From Tangfeifania diversioriginum (GTDB lineage Bacteria; Bacteroidota; Bacteroidia; Bacteroidales; Prolixibacteraceae): a stretch of 64,000 bases of DNA. Under the pieces are notes generated by a model, which saw only the letters and a program-made list of their open reading frames with translations, did not search any database and had not been told where the DNA came from. Both the position numbers and the translations under genes were made by a program. The stretch is from contig NZ_FQZE01000018.1 in the NCBI RefSeq assembly GCF_900141875.1, positions 1 to 64,000 of the forward strand, in the 5' to 3' direction. Positions 2,113 to 8,779 of the stretch are shown piece by piece; the stretch's first letter is position 1, and the number at the start of each line of letters is the position of its first letter.

Positions 2113-2235
2113 AATAAAATAACGCGTTTTTGTTAATCGGGAACCGTCCCTTCGTGACCGGAGGGGGGGGTACTTTTTCCCGGCTCGTCTTCCGGCAGTA
2201 AAAGAAACCGGTATCCACAAATCGCCCACACCCCG

Positions 2236-2372
2236 GGTGCATCGGATTCTCCCAAAGGGATCAATTCGTGGCAATTCGCTGTTAAGAAATCGCCGATCGG
2301 AATCGGCGACACCCGTGGGTGCAGCGGATTCCGATCCGCTGATTCATAACGCCGATCGGAATTGGCATCACC
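2236..2372. repeat. REP/REPIN cluster upstream of the REP-associated transposase
   Basis: Two palindromic modules alternate here. Module A reads like agcggattctcccaaaggga followed by a complementary atccgct arm (about 2237-2282; a shortened version at 2319-2344). Module B is cgccgatcggaatcggcg or close variants (2290-2307 and 2350-2367). Units begin with GGTGC and end with CACC, i.e. the two ends are inverted, as in REPINs. Related sequence with a G tract may extend back to about 2135. The same modules recur at 2570-2699, 3176-3223 and 5787-5867. Confidence 0.75.
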
Positions 2373-2413
2373 TACTTTATTTTTCATAAATTGCACAATT
2401 AATCCATTCATCT

Positions 2414-3164
2414 ATGGAAAAAAAGGAGTATTACAAACATAATCTGCCCCATTTCCAACAACCCGGACAAGCGTATTTTGTGACCTGGAGTTTACAAGAT
2501 ACTGTGCCTAAAAAAGTGTTAAAACGATATACTCAGCAACTTGAAGTTTTAAAATCGCGGATTGATGCAGGTGCGGCGGATTCTCCTAGGGTATCACTTC
2601 ATGGCGATCCCCCCTTCACAAATCGCCGATCGGAATCGGCGACACCCATGGAACCAGCGGATTCTCCCAAAGGGATCACTTTGTGGCGATCCGCTGATTC
2701 GTAAACTCCGAAAAGAATATTACGCCCTTCGAAAAAGATACATAAAAGCCTACGATGACTTGCTGGATGCTGAAAGGAACCCAAAAACAGATCTTTCTAA
2801 ACCTGAAAAACTGGAGATTTTAATTGATGCCTTAAAATTTTGGAACGGAAAGAAGTTGAAGAATCACGCTTTTTGTATTATGCCGAATCATATTCACTGG
2901 GTGTTTCAGGTGTTTGAAAAAGACAGAAACGGAGAACCGGTTTATTTGCAGGATATTCTCTATTCGGTAAAGCGGTTTTCGGCTGGGCAGATAAACAAAC
3001 TGGAAAATAGAGAAGGCAGGTTATGGCAGAAGGAAAGTTTTGATACTACCATTCGCGATGAAAAACATTTGTATTATGCTATTGAATATACACTGAATAA
3101 TCCGGTAAACGCCGGTTTTGTGGATGATTGGCGGGAATGGCCGGGCAACTGGCATGAAGAATAA
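2414..3164 (+). pseudogene. REP-associated tyrosine transposase (Y1/IS200-like), frameshifted by an internal REP insertion
   Basis: The N-terminal part (from 2414, MEKKEYYKHNLPHFQQPGQ then YFVTWSL) and the C-terminal part (from 2700, KLRKEYYALRKR to the stop at 3162-3164) are both typical of RAYT proteins. The HUH motif is visible as MPNHIH, and the C-terminal ALDNP-like stretch as YTLNNPVNAGF. Between them, bases 2570-2699 are a REP module pair that interrupts the frame: the first part reads in one frame and runs to a stop at 2704, while the second resumes in another. A shorter protein could be made from the second frame, but it would lack the first strand of the fold, so I treat the gene as broken. 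REP repeats surround it on both sides, as expected for a RAYT and its substrates. Confidence 0.8.
2570..2699. repeat. REPIN inside the transposase gene
   Basis: About 130 bases made of a degenerate module A (2570-2615), module B (tcgccgatcggaatcggcga, 2622-2641) and a second module A (2656-2699). The insert length is not a multiple of three and shifts the transposase frame. Confidence 0.75.
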
Positions 3165-3175
3165 CTGGTGTGCCG

Positions 3176-3223
3176 GGTGCAGCGGATTCTCCCAAAGGGA
3201 TCACTCCGTGGCGATCCGCTGAT
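3176..3223. repeat. REP unit downstream of the transposase
   Basis: A near-perfect module A: ggtgc, then agcggattctcccaaaggga, then a complementary gcgatccgct arm. It begins 11 bases after the transposase stop. Confidence 0.75.
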
Positions 3224-3259
3224 AAAAAAATAGCAGGGGAAAGAAAAGTACCCCTGCTA
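3224..3259 (-). terminator. Intrinsic terminator of the PKD/beta-helix lipoprotein gene
   Basis: On the minus strand, TAGCAGGGG and CCCCTGCTA form a perfect 9-bp stem around an 11-base loop, followed by a run of seven T. It lies 23 bases past the stop codon of the gene at 3283. Confidence 0.85.
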
Positions 3260-3282: not shown

Positions 3283-5670
3283 TTATTGTATCGTCAGCGC
3301 TGATCCCGCATTGCTGGTGAATGTATTTTCGGAGAGTAAAGTGGATTCCAATTCAGCAAGAGTACTGAGCATTCCGTTTACAGTTGAAGAATTGGAGATA
3401 AACAAGCCAGTTCCGCTACCGTTGGTGATTACTGAATTTTGTATCTCCAGTGTGCCATTTAATGCCACATTGGCTGTTCTCCAACCACCGCTGTACAATA
3501 TCTCGTCATTTCCTGCATAGGATACTTCGCAGTAGTTTAACTTGTTATTGGCACTATTGGTTTCAATTGCAATACCTTTCCATTTTTCATCGGTATCTAC
3601 AGCCGTAAATGTTATCATCTCATTTTCGGTTCCCTCGGCACTTAAGGCTCCTGAATCGTTAACAATAAGCGATGCATTGCTTGTAAATTTCAAGGTTGCA
3701 CCTGCATTGACAGTTAATGCTTCTTTGACCTGTACTTCGCTCATCACAAGGTAATAGGCGTCTCCGGACAAGGTAACCCACGTGTTATTTTCTGTATTTG
3801 TAAAATTCGATTTATAAATAGCTATAACGTTTTGGGTATTATTTGAAAACTGGAAACCTTCGTTAACTTCAGCAGCATGGTTTGCAGATAAAACAACCGG
3901 TCGCCCCTGGATATTCTCGAACGTCAGGTCGCTGAATGAAACTTCTGCACCTTTGTGAACATATATTCCATCCGCACTACTGTTTGATATTGTTGAATTG
4001 GTGATGGTAGCCTGCGCATTGTCACCTACTCCAACACTCACGTACTGCCAGCCGCTGTAATAGAAATTATCGTTACTTGCCGCCCACGAAACAGTTACAT
4101 AATCGAGTTCATTTCTTGCATCCGCTGATTCAAATATAATACCCGACCAATGGATTTGGCCGCTTTCATTGGCTGTGGTAAACACAATTTGATTTGAAGC
4201 AGTACCTTTTGCGATTAAAGCACCATCGGTATCTACCACTATTTTTACATCCTGTTCCGATTCAAATTGTGCGCCTTCTTCTATTCTCAGTAATGCTTCA
4301 ATAGTTATATTGCCGCTTAAATGGTAGCGTGCATTGTTTAAGGCGCTCCATTGTATTTCAGAATCAGACGACAAGGTTGATTTGTTAATTACAACTACAT
4401 CTTTCCTGTTTCCTGAAAAAGTAGTAGCGCCGTCCATGGAACCAGTTTGCGCTGCGTATAAACCTACGGGATAACCTTCGTTGTCTTCAAAGGAGTTGGA
4501 CGAGAATTCCCCCAACTCGCCATTTACATGAACAAAGAGCCCGTAATCGCCACTTTTCGAAATGGTGGTATTGTTTAGTTTTAGTTTACCTTCGTCACCA
4601 ACAGCCAGGGCAGCAGTTTTCCAACCCGAAGAATGCAGAATCTCTTCGCTGCCGGCCCAGGATATTTCAACATTAGACATGATGTTCCTGGCATCTGAAG
4701 AATTAACCAAAATACCTTTCCATCTTATCTCGCCCGCTACGTTGGCCGATGTAAATAGAATTGAATCGTCAGTGGTTCCTTCGGCATTTATCATTCCTGA
4801 ACTGGTAATGGTTAGTACCCTGTTTTGCTCAAAATGAACGATAACACCCGGGGCAACTGTTAATTCAGCATTTACATCCACATTGGCAGTAACAAGATAA
4901 TCCGGCATATCCGAGTCTTCAAAAATGTCCTCAAGAGTGGTGTTCTCATTTATATCTGAATCGATTACCATCGGATCTGCCTTGGCTATAATTGTCACCT
5001 GGGTGGCATTGCTGTTGTCGTTAGGATCGGTTACCTCCAGTTGAAGGATATATTCTCCCGGAACATCAGGAACAAAACCAGCTTCGGCATTGGTGTCGTT
5101 GTTTATTTCCGGATTACTGCCGTCGGGTTGGGAAACAATCGTCCATTGAAATGAAAGCTGATCCTCATCCGGATCGGTCGATGCACTTCCATCCAGTACA
5201 TAAGTTTGTGTTATGGTAATGCTGTTGTTTTCATTGTCCTCGCTGACGGCACTGCCATTTTCATCATGAATGACAGCAACAGGCGGGCTTCCCTCTGCTT
5301 CAACTACAGTGATGATGATTTCATCGGTCACTGCATCATAAACGCCGTCGGTCACTGTCAGCGTAACGGTATAACTTCCCGCAACGTCAGGAACAAAACT
5401 TGCATTTTTACTATTCGGGTTTGTTAAGGTAGCACTGCTGCTCGAAGGAGAAGTGGTGATTGCCCAGCTGTAAGCTAATTCATCATCGTCAGGATCGGTG
5501 CCAGTACCGTTTAAAGTTACTGTACTGCCCACTACTGCATCCTGATCAATGCCTGCATCTGCAGTTGGCGGATCGCCGGGCTGAACTTCTTCATCTTTTT
5601 CACAACTGTAAAAAATGCCTGTAAAAGCTAAGGCAATTAATACAACATAAGTTTTAACCAAATACTTCAT
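3283..5670 (-). CDS. Surface lipoprotein with tandem PKD-like domains and a parallel beta-helix
   Basis: The start at 5670 gives MKYLVKTYVVLIALAFTGIF followed by YSCEKDEE, a lipoprotein signal whose acidic residues after the lipidated Cys resemble the Bacteroidota surface-export signal; the open frame upstream of it is not signal-like. The product is 795 residues. Residues about 32-120 and 125-225 are two PKD/REJ-type beta-sandwich domains (ADAGIDQDAVVGSTVTLNG; DPDEDQLSFQW). The rest is repetitive beta-helix sequence, in three cycles of FTxANxxGxIxWxGI followed by a ChAS-like WAGS/WAAS motif, suggesting a carbohydrate- or ligand-binding surface solenoid. There is no T9SS sorting domain. The gene stands alone, flanked by REP repeats and with its own terminator. 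No catalytic residues can be named. Confidence 0.8.
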   Translation of the reverse strand: MKYLVKTYVVLIALAFTGIFYSCEKDEEVQPGDPPTADAGIDQDAVVGSTVTLNGTGTDPDDDELAYSWAITTSPSSSSATLTNPNSKNASFVPDVAGSYTVTLTVTDGVYDAVTDEIIITVVEAEGSPPVAVIHDENGSAVSEDNENNSITITQTYVLDGSASTDPDEDQLSFQWTIVSQPDGSNPEINNDTNAEAGFVPDVPGEYILQLEVTDPNDNSNATQVTIIAKADPMVIDSDINENTTLEDIFEDSDMPDYLVTANVDVNAELTVAPGVIVHFEQNRVLTITSSGMINAEGTTDDSILFTSANVAGEIRWKGILVNSSDARNIMSNVEISWAGSEEILHSSGWKTAALAVGDEGKLKLNNTTISKSGDYGLFVHVNGELGEFSSNSFEDNEGYPVGLYAAQTGSMDGATTFSGNRKDVVVINKSTLSSDSEIQWSALNNARYHLSGNITIEALLRIEEGAQFESEQDVKIVVDTDGALIAKGTASNQIVFTTANESGQIHWSGIIFESADARNELDYVTVSWAASNDNFYYSGWQYVSVGVGDNAQATITNSTISNSSADGIYVHKGAEVSFSDLTFENIQGRPVVLSANHAAEVNEGFQFSNNTQNVIAIYKSNFTNTENNTWVTLSGDAYYLVMSEVQVKEALTVNAGATLKFTSNASLIVNDSGALSAEGTENEMITFTAVDTDEKWKGIAIETNSANNKLNYCEVSYAGNDEILYSGGWRTANVALNGTLEIQNSVITNGSGTGLFISNSSTVNGMLSTLAELESTLLSENTFTSNAGSALTIQ

Positions 5671-5786
5671 AATAATTTGTTTTGTTTTGAAATGTGTTTT
5701 AATTAGAATTAATTTAAATAATGGCAACAGTACCAACTGAAATTAGTTCAAAAAAAATTTAAAAGAATGGCTTGATGAAGAAATAA

Positions 5787-5867: not shown

Positions 5868-5997
5868 AAGCTTGAGAAGCCCGTCATTTTGGTGGGCGAG
5901 AGGTGGTTCCTGGGCAAATAGTTTTCAGACAGCACCCGTCTCACCGATGTATTTTGCAGAGAAAATGGTTAATTTGCGGTTTGAAGCGAAAAATATA

Positions 5998-6753
5998 ATG
6001 AGTCAACGCTATTTTTTACAACTGAGTTACAAAGGAACCCACTACCATGGCTGGCAAATTCAGCCCAATGCCGTTTCGGTGCAGGAAGTGATGGAAAAAG
6101 CATTGTCAACAATCCTTCGCGAAGAAATCGCAGTAGTGGGCGCCGGCCGCACCGATACCGGGGTACATGCTTCCTGTTTTGTACTGCATTTCGACAGTAA
6201 AAACAGGGCGATTGCTGAAGGAGACTTAGTTTTTAAACTGAACCGCTTTCTGCCGCCGGACATTGCGGTTATCGGCATTAAAAAGGCACCCGGCGATTTC
6301 CACGCCCGGTTCAGCGCCATCTCGCGCACCTACCACTATTATATTTCCACACAGAAAAATCCGTTTCAAACAGAAACCAGCTACCAATACACGGTTCCGC
6401 TCGATGTGCCAAAAATGAATGAAGCCGCCAAATTACTATTTGAATACACTGATTTTACCAGCTTCAGCCGACTGCATACCGATGTAAAAACCAACTACTG
6501 CAAAATATGCAAAGCAGAGTGGAGCAGGGAAGAAGATCAACTGGTTTTTACCATTTGCGCCGATCGATTTTTACGTAACATGGTACGTGCCGTGGTGGGA
6601 ACATTACTCGAAGTTGGCCGTGGAAAACTTTCTGTGGAAGGTTTCAGGGAAATTATTGAAAAAAAGGACAGGGGGGCGGCAGGAGCTTCGGCACCGGCCC
6701 GGGGACTGTTTTTATCCCACATCGGGTATCCAAAAGAGATGGAAATACAATAG
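5998..6753 (+). CDS. truA: tRNA pseudouridine(38-40) synthase TruA
   Basis: TruA isomerises uridines 38-40 in the anticodon stem-loop of many tRNAs. The 251-residue product has the family's normal length. The catalytic aspartate is D53 in [11 protein letters not shown], and the second half contains the expected [20 protein letters not shown] block. The ATG at 5998 ([19 protein letters not shown]) is the canonical N-terminus; the frame is open further upstream but that sequence is not TruA-like. The gene appears monocistronic, with a REPIN upstream and the small-RNA array downstream. Confidence 0.95.
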
Positions 6754-6840
6754 CACATTTTGATATTTGGGTAATTAACTTAGGTGTCAGAGTGTAGTAA
6801 ATAAATTTCGGTGTTGGAAAATCCTGCTTCCGTTGCGGGC

Positions 6841-6925
6841 AAAAAAAAAGGACGGGTCAACACCCATCCTTTTCATCTAACTAAACCAATAAAACTAATC
6901 AAACCTAAACCTATGAACTAAAACT
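6841..6925 (-). ncRNA. Putative small RNA, array copy 1
   Basis: On the minus strand a -7 box TATATTTG (6932-6939) precedes about 85 bases that end in a 12-bp stem (6846-6873, aaaaggatgggt / acccgtcctttt, one G-U pair, 4-base loop) and nine T. That is a complete transcription unit with no gene inside. The -33 region has no TTTG box, so it may need an activator. The RNA between start and terminator is U-rich and largely unstructured (for example gtttaggtttgattag), suited to base pairing. The start point is estimated from the -7 box. Confidence 0.55.
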
Positions 6926-7135
6926 ATGCTGCAAATATAAGCCCGATTTTGATTGAATGAGTTAACTGAGTGTTAAGAAATATGTTGTTAAACATTTTTT
7001 AACACTTTTTGGAGATAATAAAATTTGTAGAATGAATAATTAATGACTGATTTTGAAGTGATTATAAATAATTAAGTACTGATTATTTTACGACCAATAT
7101 AAATTGGTATTGGAAACTCCGGCTCCCATTGTGGC

Positions 7136-7220
7136 AAAAAAAAAGGACGGGTCAACACCCATCCTTTTCATCTAACTAAACCAATAAAACTAATCAAACC
7201 TAAACCTATGAACTAAAACT
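7136..7220 (-). ncRNA. Putative small RNA, array copy 2
   Basis: Same organisation as copy 1: -7 box at 7227-7234, terminator stem at 7141-7168 and a nine-T tail to 7136. The predicted RNA body is identical to copy 1 in the bases I compared; upstream the copies differ by single substitutions. Confidence 0.55.
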
Positions 7221-7382
7221 ATGCTGCAAATATAAGCCCGATTTTGATTGAATGGGTTAACTGAGTGTTAAGAAATATGTTGTTAAACATTTTTTAACAC
7301 TTTTGTTGAGATAGCAAAACCTATAGAATGTATAATTAATGGCTGTTTTTAAGGGAGTTATAAATAATTGAATGCTGATTGT

Positions 7383-7534
7383 TTCTACTTTGACAGATTA
7401 TATGAGAGACCGATTTTTCTTATTTTTTACCCCGGCCCCAAGTGGAGAAATAAGAAAAATCTATTTGGTTCCCCTTGGGGTGTAGGGTAAAACGAATAGA
7501 TTTTTCGATATTAGTGTAAAGTGTCAAAGTAGAA
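7383..7534. mobile_element. MITE-like 152-bp palindromic element inside the repeat array
   Basis: Perfect 13-bp terminal inverted repeats, ttctactttgaca (7383-7395) and tgtcaaagtagaa (7522-7534), enclose sequence that is itself an imperfect long palindrome (cgatttttcttatttttta against taaaacgaatagatttttcg). It interrupts the spacer between array copies 2 and 3; the uninterrupted spacer (ctgattattttacg) is preserved between copies 1 and 2, with perhaps a 2-3 base target duplication. No coding sequence is present, so mobilisation would need a transposase in trans. Confidence 0.7.
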
Positions 7535-7587
7535 TTATTTTACGACCAATATAAATTGGTATTGGAAACTCCGGCTCCCATTGTGGC

Positions 7588-7671
7588 AAAAAAAAGGACG
7601 GGTCAACACCCATCCTTTTCATCTAACTAAACCAATAAAACTAATCAAACCTAAACCTATGAACTAAAACT
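7588..7671 (-). ncRNA. Putative small RNA, array copy 3
   Basis: -7 box at 7678-7685, terminator stem at 7592-7619 and an eight-T tail. The RNA body matches the other copies, while the upstream segment beyond the -7 box has diverged most (gttaactgaatgttaaaaat). It lies about 60 bases from the terminator of the floA operon. Confidence 0.55.
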
Positions 7672-7746
7672 ATGCTGCAAATATAAGCTCGATTTTGATT
7701 GAATGGGTTAACTGAATGTTAAAAATATGTTATTCAACATTAAATC

Positions 7747-7782
7747 AAAAAAAAAGCCTTTCAGAAAATGAAAGGCTTTTTT
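7747..7782 (-). terminator. Intrinsic terminator of the floA operon
   Basis: A 13-bp stem (aaaaaagcctttc / gaaaggctttttt) with a 7-base loop and T-runs on both strands, 17 bases past the floA stop. It can act in both directions and would also isolate the small-RNA array. Confidence 0.85.
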
Positions 7783-7798
7783 GATAAGTTGTTGAATA

Positions 7799-8779
7799 TT
7801 ATTCTTTTTCATCATTTTGCTCGTCGTCTGCAATTGACCCGCGCATAGCCGTATCGGCTTTAATGTTATTGTATTTCATGTAATCCATTATGCCCAGGTT
7901 TCCGCTTTTGAATGCTTCGGAAATAGCCAGTGGCACTTTCACCTCGGCCTCGATAACTTTGGCACGGGCTTCCTGTGCTTTGGCTTTCATTTCCTGCTCG
8001 AGGGCTATAGCCATGGCACGGCGTTCTTCGGCTTTGGCCTGTGCAATGTTTTTGTCGGCTTCGGCCTGGTCAATTTGCAATCCGGCACCAATGTTTTTAC
8101 CAATGTCGATGTCTGCAATATCGATGGAGAGAATTTCGAAAGCGGTCCCGGCATCGAGTCCTTTCTCCAGCACAACCCGCGAAATAAAATCCGGATTTTC
8201 GAGCACGGCTTTGTGCGAGTGCGATGAACCGATGGAAGAAACAATCCCTTCGCCCACACGGGCCAAAACTGTGTCTTCGCCGGCGCCGCCTACCAACTGC
8301 TTAATACTTGCGCGGACAGTGACACGTGCTTTGGCAATCAGCTGAATCCCGTCTTTTGAAACGGCAGTAACCGGGGGGGTGTTAATCACTTTCGGGTTAA
8401 CCGACATTTGAACGGCCTCGAACACATCGCGGCCCGCAAGGTCGATGGCAGTGGCCACTTTAAAAGTTAAGTCGATGTTGGCTTTGGATGCCGACACCAG
8501 CGCGTGCACCACATTGGCCACGTGCCCGCCGGCCAGGTAGTGTGCCTCCAAATCGTTTCGGTTAAGATGAAGGCCTGCTTTTGTTCCTTCGATTAGTGCC
8601 CGGACGATAACTCCCGGCGGCACTTTTCTGAACCGCATCAGAAACAGCTGCAGAAGTGAAATTTTTACGCCTGAAACCAGGGCTGAAAACCACAACCCGA
8701 TGGGAATGAAATAGAGGATGATGAAAAGTAAAACAATTACTCCAATCACCATTCCCCATGTACCTACTGATTCAATCAT
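7799..8779 (-). CDS. floA: Flotillin-like protein FloA
   Basis: FloA proteins are membrane-anchored SPFH scaffolds that organise membrane microdomains. The 326-residue product has the family's length and order: an N-terminal hydrophobic hairpin (about residues 9-45), an SPFH domain (from about 50, [20 protein letters not shown]), and an Ala/Glu/Lys-rich coiled coil (about 230-285, [20 protein letters not shown]). It is last in the minus-strand order SPOR protein-clpS-nfeD-floA; the NfeD gene ends four bases upstream. The floA-nfeD pairing is widespread, and NfeD proteins usually partner SPFH proteins. Confidence 0.93.

Follow-up and report, generated by a model that had tools for sequence, protein, structure and literature searches.

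Candidate FopS-like small RNA genes in a tandem array beside floA of Tangfeifania diversioriginum and their predicted complementarity to SusC translation starts

Introduction

Three nearly identical short units without an evident reading frame lie one behind the other between truA and floA in Tangfeifania diversioriginum, which raises the question of what they encode and which genes they might control. The locus is part of a window of 64,000 nucleotides, the whole stretch of DNA that was analysed (contig NZ_FQZE01000018.1, positions 1 to 64,000). A first-pass annotation made from the letters alone had proposed a multicopy regulatory RNA family, whose minus-strand units each consist of a −7 box, an RNA of about 85 nt and a terminator, and had pointed to a TTAA-rich stretch upstream of the box as a possible activator site.

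In Bacteroides thetaiotaomicron the small RNA (sRNA) FopS blocks the translation of susC at the start codon, and the RRM protein RbpB, which binds the 5' part of FopS, counteracts it (PMC11697453). FopS (Rfam RF04319) is reported as conserved within the Bacteroidaceae. The array described here probably represents a divergent Prolixibacteraceae branch of FopS-like sRNAs, to judge from sequence comparison, and this branch is undescribed as far as the searched libraries show.

Organization of the array

The array consists of three direct repeats of 172 nt (6838-7009, 7133-7304 and 7584-7755) with full-length identities of 99% and 84%, the higher value applying to copies 1 and 2. On the minus strand each unit is composed of the box TATATTTG, 14 nt, the sequence TTCATAGGTTTAGG..., a U-rich body and a terminator made of a 12-bp hairpin and 8-9 T, so that the three units of the first-pass annotation were borne out between 6841 and 7740 (Table 1). 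The RNA part of all three copies reaches the same score with a covariance model (R1). The predicted fold consists of the terminator and, 5' of it, a single weak AU helix, while the remaining 5' segment is unstructured. A chance origin of the array is excluded, because the 93-nt unit folds with a z of −3.7 and has matches in 32 of 61 genomes.

The repeats are spaced by 295 and then by 451, an irregularity due to a 156-bp palindromic insertion at 7379-7536 with terminal inverted repeats at 7383-7400 and 7517-7534. This element has ten matches in the genome including itself, with six other long copies and four others of 94-99% identity. The element makes up the additional 156 bp, so that the original period was about 295, in agreement with the roughly 300 bp proposed before. 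Two of its matches elsewhere are located near other sRNA candidates (C40:24400 and C50:76955).

Table 1 Features of the array, its neighbours and related units in other loci (positions in the window unless a contig or locus is named)
Feature	Position	Strand	Remarks
sRNA copy 1	6841..6925	-	predicted ~84-86 nt, seed TTCATAGG... then terminator; R1 match 6843-6931, 103.2 bits; fold z -3.7
sRNA copy 2	7136..7220	-	R1 match 7138-7226, 103.2 bits; 99% identity with copy 1 across 172 nt
sRNA copy 3	7587..7671	-	R1 match 7589-7677, 103.2 bits
-7 box TATATTTG, copy 1	6932..6939	-	family form TAnnTTTG, 20-23 nt 5' of seed in 130/141 units
-7 box TATATTTG, copy 2	7227..7234	-	
-7 box TATATTTG, copy 3	7678..7685	-	
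Upstream site TTAACACTCAGTTAAC, copy 1	6961..6976	-	putative activator site
Upstream site, copy 2	7256..7271	-	
Upstream site TTAACATTCAGTTAAC, copy 3	7707..7722	-	
Palindrome ATGTTGTTAAACAT, upstream of copy 1	6982..6995		
Palindrome ATGTTGTTAAACAT, upstream of copy 2	7277..7290		
Palindrome ATGTTATTCAACAT, upstream of copy 3	7727..7740		
MITE-like palindromic insertion	7379..7536		between copies 2 and 3, outside the sRNA system
floA (flotillin-like)	7799..8779	-	upstream neighbour of the array, same strand; PF12127, 523 bits
truA	5872..6753	+	convergent, downstream of the array; PF01416
Terminator-like inverted repeat	7750..7782		between array and floA
Sigma-FecR gap units	C40:24583, C24:38420, C24:47498, C50:75621		L180 1501-1577, L244 1501-1575, L240 1501-1589, L241 1501-1571
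susC-antisense units	L272 3740-3835(-), L258 492-611(+), L262 513-612(+), L263 503-597(+), L266 3538-3631(-)		others exist

The conservation is not explained by a reading frame, as had been stated in the first-pass annotation. It is very improbable that the units are small ORFs or leader peptides instead of noncoding RNAs: the only ATG of the window copies (AGATGAAAAGG) lies at the base of the terminator stem and is missing from most homologues, a frame opened there would cross the terminator, and indels in the TTTAGTTAG repeats shift any frame. The leader of a longer mRNA was also considered and rejected, as every unit has its own terminator and the next downstream gene, truA, is convergent.

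Elsewhere in the window, repeated GCGGATTCTCCCAAAGGGATCACT... elements are found at 2233-3229 (three copies of ~57 nt together with CGCCGATCGGAATCGGCG repeats), in and around ORFs at 2414-3164 whose translations resemble a REP-associated transposase; Pfam gave no match for the frame 2562-3164. A gene at 3283-5736 on the minus strand codes for a large protein in which PKD domains are combined with a right-handed beta helix.

Distribution and conservation of the family

The BLASTN and covariance-model searches suggested by the first-pass annotation were carried out and revealed a family spread across the Prolixibacteraceae. With the unit as query, all the genomes matched by BLASTN, that of T. 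diversioriginum and those of relatives, belong to the family of the window genome. An exact search for the seed pattern found 75 stretches of named genomes with up to five matches per stretch, and from these and other loci 141 distinct homologous units were collected. The named records are all Prolixibacteraceae or unclassified MAGs of Bacteroidales, Bacteroidia or Bacteroidota, and the genera include Mariniphaga, Draconibacterium, Maribellus, Prolixibacter, Sunxiuqinia, Mangrovibacterium and Gaoshiqia, all of which we take to be Prolixibacteraceae, as well as others.

The seed TTCATA[GA]GTTT[AG]G[GA]TTT..TTAGTTT is near-invariant among the units, in part by selection since it served as search pattern; units found by BLASTN show the same conservation. 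The terminator covaries with a score of 0.376 compared to 0.228 in shuffles (0/500), and in a wider set, whose alignment was fitted to the structure, changes on both sides of the stem number 152 versus 33. Tandem arrays contain up to 5 units, mostly spaced by 167-283 bp. Most homologous loci have floA beside the units, in the gene order TPR gene-clpS-nfeD-like-floA-array. In two loci (L293 and L295) a hairpin-like insert splits the seed after TTCATAGGTTT and the rest of the unit is kept.

The canonical promoter of the family, TAnnTTTG, is accompanied by a further conserved site. In 81 of the 130 units with a box, the distance from the start of TTAACATTCnnTTAAC (≤3 mismatches) to the −7 box is exactly 37 bp, and ATGTTnnnnAACAT is commonest at −56, where it occurs exactly in 26/130 units against a shuffled mean of 0.15. 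In the genome of T. diversioriginum the combination of TTAACATTCnnTTAAC and box at this fixed spacing is confined to the three array units; among the relatives it marks further family members in several genomes and unrelated places in others. The TTAA-rich site is thus real, and its fixed distance supports the idea of an activator site, which stays putative.

Near-identical tandem copies, two of them separated by a MITE-like element, could also be mobile or selfish repeats, or remnants of such, devoid of an RNA function. This reading is hardly credible given the conserved position next to floA, the covarying terminator and the fixed-distance promoter, and the seed pattern has no match in viral contigs. 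Phage carriage has been reported for FopS; owing to the missing match in viral contigs, it is not seen for the floA-array family. In contrast to a mobile repeat, a multicopy regulatory RNA family is supported by the 141 units, their tandem arrangement, the near-invariant 5' segment, the terminator and the fixed-distance promoter and upstream site. By comparative evidence the array units are real sRNA genes, whose transcription we infer.

Relation to FopS

No credible Rfam family was found for the window, whether at gathering or at permissive thresholds, and RF04319 in particular matched neither at its gathering threshold (56 bits) nor at E up to 10. The relationship to FopS emerges from the R1 model, which was built only from Prolixibacteraceae-type units and finds weaker members in other Bacteroidales families. 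Four intermediates (L168, L170, L166 and L171) match R1 and also RF04319 with 34-43 bits, below the threshold of 56. Furthermore, genomes of the window family contain sub-threshold RF04319 candidates at other loci, including C26:12614 of T. diversioriginum, many of which are recovered by R1, and a gathering-level FopS of another family (L212) is found by R1 at E 0.004. We read the floA-array units and FopS as one diverged superfamily, a link which would run via the intermediates and not directly.

Several general features of FopS are also present. The window units combine an unstructured 5' segment with an intrinsic terminator, the canonical promoter of the Bacteroidota primary sigma factor stands before the seed in 130/141 units, and the genome of T. 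diversioriginum harbours, besides the three array copies, paralogues on C80, C40 and C26 at E below 1e-3 as well as weaker ones. A seed complementary to the translation initiation regions of susC is found computationally (see below). The candidate on C26 (L237 1501-1577, C26:12607-12683) has its own TATTTTTG box and lies between genes named ppdK-like and clpB-like from reading their translations.

SusC start codons as predicted targets

The first-pass annotation had also suggested a target prediction for the U-rich body, and this brought to light a complementarity to SusC starts in two genomes. The 5' segment UUCAUA[GA]GUUUAGG... complements the starts of SusC translation, which have the form ..CTATGAA.., the reverse complement of the seed (..AAACCTAAACCTATGAA) reading as a start codon in an A-rich context, and the predicted pairing joins UUCAUAGGUUUAGG... 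of the sRNA to ..CCTAAACCTATGAA.. of the mRNA. The start TATGAA is present in 21/30 SusC genes of T. diversioriginum and 15/30 of a second genome (G029) compared to 32/292 other genes, with the SusC start set at the farthest upstream ATG, which will be wrong for some.

For the 30 SusC genes of T. diversioriginum the mean duplex energy is −17.3 kcal/mol versus −12.2 kcal/mol with shuffled seeds (0/150, z −5.1), energies which ignore the structure within each RNA and come from AT-rich pairings that are individually weak. In G029 the seed likewise beats all of the 150 dinucleotide-preserving shuffles at the SusC starts (0/150, z −3.5). The effect is absent from AT-matched other genes (z −1.1 and −0.7), and SusC differs from them in both genomes (Mann-Whitney, 1e-5 and 1.4e-3), although the matching is imperfect (0.756 versus 0.81 and 0.78 in SusC). 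In T. diversioriginum only the 40-nt windows that begin at −40 and −20 relative to the AUG carry the signal, which is absent at the other positions tested. A contiguous helix of at least 9 bp through the AUG is possible in 10/30 and 6/30 SusC genes against 4/292 controls (Fisher, 8e-9 and 6e-5), and all three bases of the AUG are paired in 24/30 and 18/30 SusC genes. Near-perfect complements of the seed (25 nt, ≤3 mismatches) are restricted to the array itself within the genome, hence pairing with targets would rely on shorter helices.

TATGAAAA may be favoured at SusC starts by translation itself, in which case the seed would simply match it. It is also conceivable, if rather improbable, that the main targets of a trans-acting antisense sRNA are other mRNAs with the same start context, as the tests covered SusC genes and the genes around the fetched loci and a few of the controls can form the helix through the AUG; the enrichment of SusC over AT-matched controls in two genomes and the occurrence of related units inside SusC loci speak against it. 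A similarly small probability is assigned to a 5' segment serving mainly as a binding site for RRM proteins (UUAGUU-type repeats), which would make the RNA a protein sponge instead of an mRNA-pairing molecule. Such a role would fit the UUUAGUU/GGUUUAG repeats, conserved over a longer stretch than pairing needs, the RRM_1 proteins of T. diversioriginum (two) and most relatives, and the binding of RbpB to FopS (PMC11697453). However, the complementarity is tied to a particular position and gene class, the starts of SusC genes, and two genomes (G010 and G030) keep the units with no RRM_1 match.

Related units at other loci

Further candidates in the genome of T. diversioriginum were found with a superfamily model (R2), which gave few matches in a class-wide scan, some of them chance-like (such as L249). 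Four candidates are located between genes for ECF sigma factors and FecR-like proteins upstream of susC, and both domains were confirmed by Pfam at two of these four loci. These units consist of TTCATAG, TTTAG repeats and a terminator and lack the TAnnTTTG box. In addition, weak matches lie antisense at about ten susC starts, most of them with strong terminators situated in the gap upstream of susC; a consensus promoter was not seen by eye in these antisense units. To some extent such matches are to be expected, given the likeness of the seed to the antisense strand of susC starts. In their opposition to susC starts they are similar to the cis-antisense RNAs of the DonS type, which suggests, without proving, that trans forms arose from cis-antisense RNAs. 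Tentatively, all of these may form one large Bacteroidales class of start-codon antisense RNAs with a UUUCAUA core (cis at susC, local at sigma-fecR, dispersed or tandem in trans as FopS and floA arrays), in which trans forms derive from cis susC antisense and globally restrain TonB-dependent glycan uptake at the level of translation; we regard this as possible rather than probable.

Proposed function

We consider it likely from these comparisons that the array encodes a multicopy, FopS-like sRNA which acts in trans to repress SusC translation. Three copies of an sRNA of ~85 nt would be made from their own TAnnTTTG promoters below the upstream site, each with an intrinsic terminator behind a long, mostly unstructured and near-invariant 5' seed. 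Through this seed the sRNA would bind many mRNAs of the SusC family over the AUG and the A-rich initiation region and keep ribosomes from loading, so that glycan uptake would be damped when a signal acts on the upstream site; the tandem copies would provide dosage. Repression, the signal and the participation of an RbpB-like RRM protein are, like transcription, what we infer.

The array places FopS-like, putatively SusC-start-directed sRNAs in an environmental Bacteroidales family and at a conserved tandem floA locus, and the shared promoter-upstream site predicts a dedicated regulator. The complementarity between seed and start offers a direct, testable target rule. If the proposal is true, regulating the translation of SusC importers through multicopy sRNAs would be an old and general feature of the Bacteroidales.

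Comparison with known sRNA systems

Qrr of Vibrio and OmrA/OmrB of enterobacteria are multicopy regulatory sRNAs (PMC11697453), and the likeness drawn to them by the first-pass annotation holds for this property. They are analogies only, from a different phylum with a different RNA-chaperone setting and with no Rfam match in the window; the closest relatives are probably FopS and GibS of Bacteroides. The DonS-type RNAs of Bacteroides PULs (78-128 nt) are opposed to susC homologs and lower susC expression (PMC7366714). They are encoded divergently to their own susC, whereas the array is flanked by floA and truA, lies near no susC and would act in trans.

GibS (BTnc035) of B. thetaiotaomicron also has a long single-stranded 5' seed pairing around start codons, but it is encoded by a single gene, measures ~145 nt, and possesses a second seed (R2) and a PM2 promoter of non-canonical type (PMC7366714); the promoter of the window units is the canonical TATATTTG and not PM2. 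From FopS the window family differs by a sequence diverged below Rfam detection, a longer near-invariant 5' segment with TTTAGTTAG repeats, a conserved TTAAC-type upstream site and the tandem position beside floA, while intergenic, antisense and 3' UTR-derived members are found among the 14 FopS genes (PMC11697453). Common to both are the multicopy state, the short length, the canonical promoter and the intrinsic terminator, a mostly unstructured U-rich 5' end with CAU followed by UUAG-type sequence, and a seed complementary to SusC translation starts, which is computed in the case of the window family.
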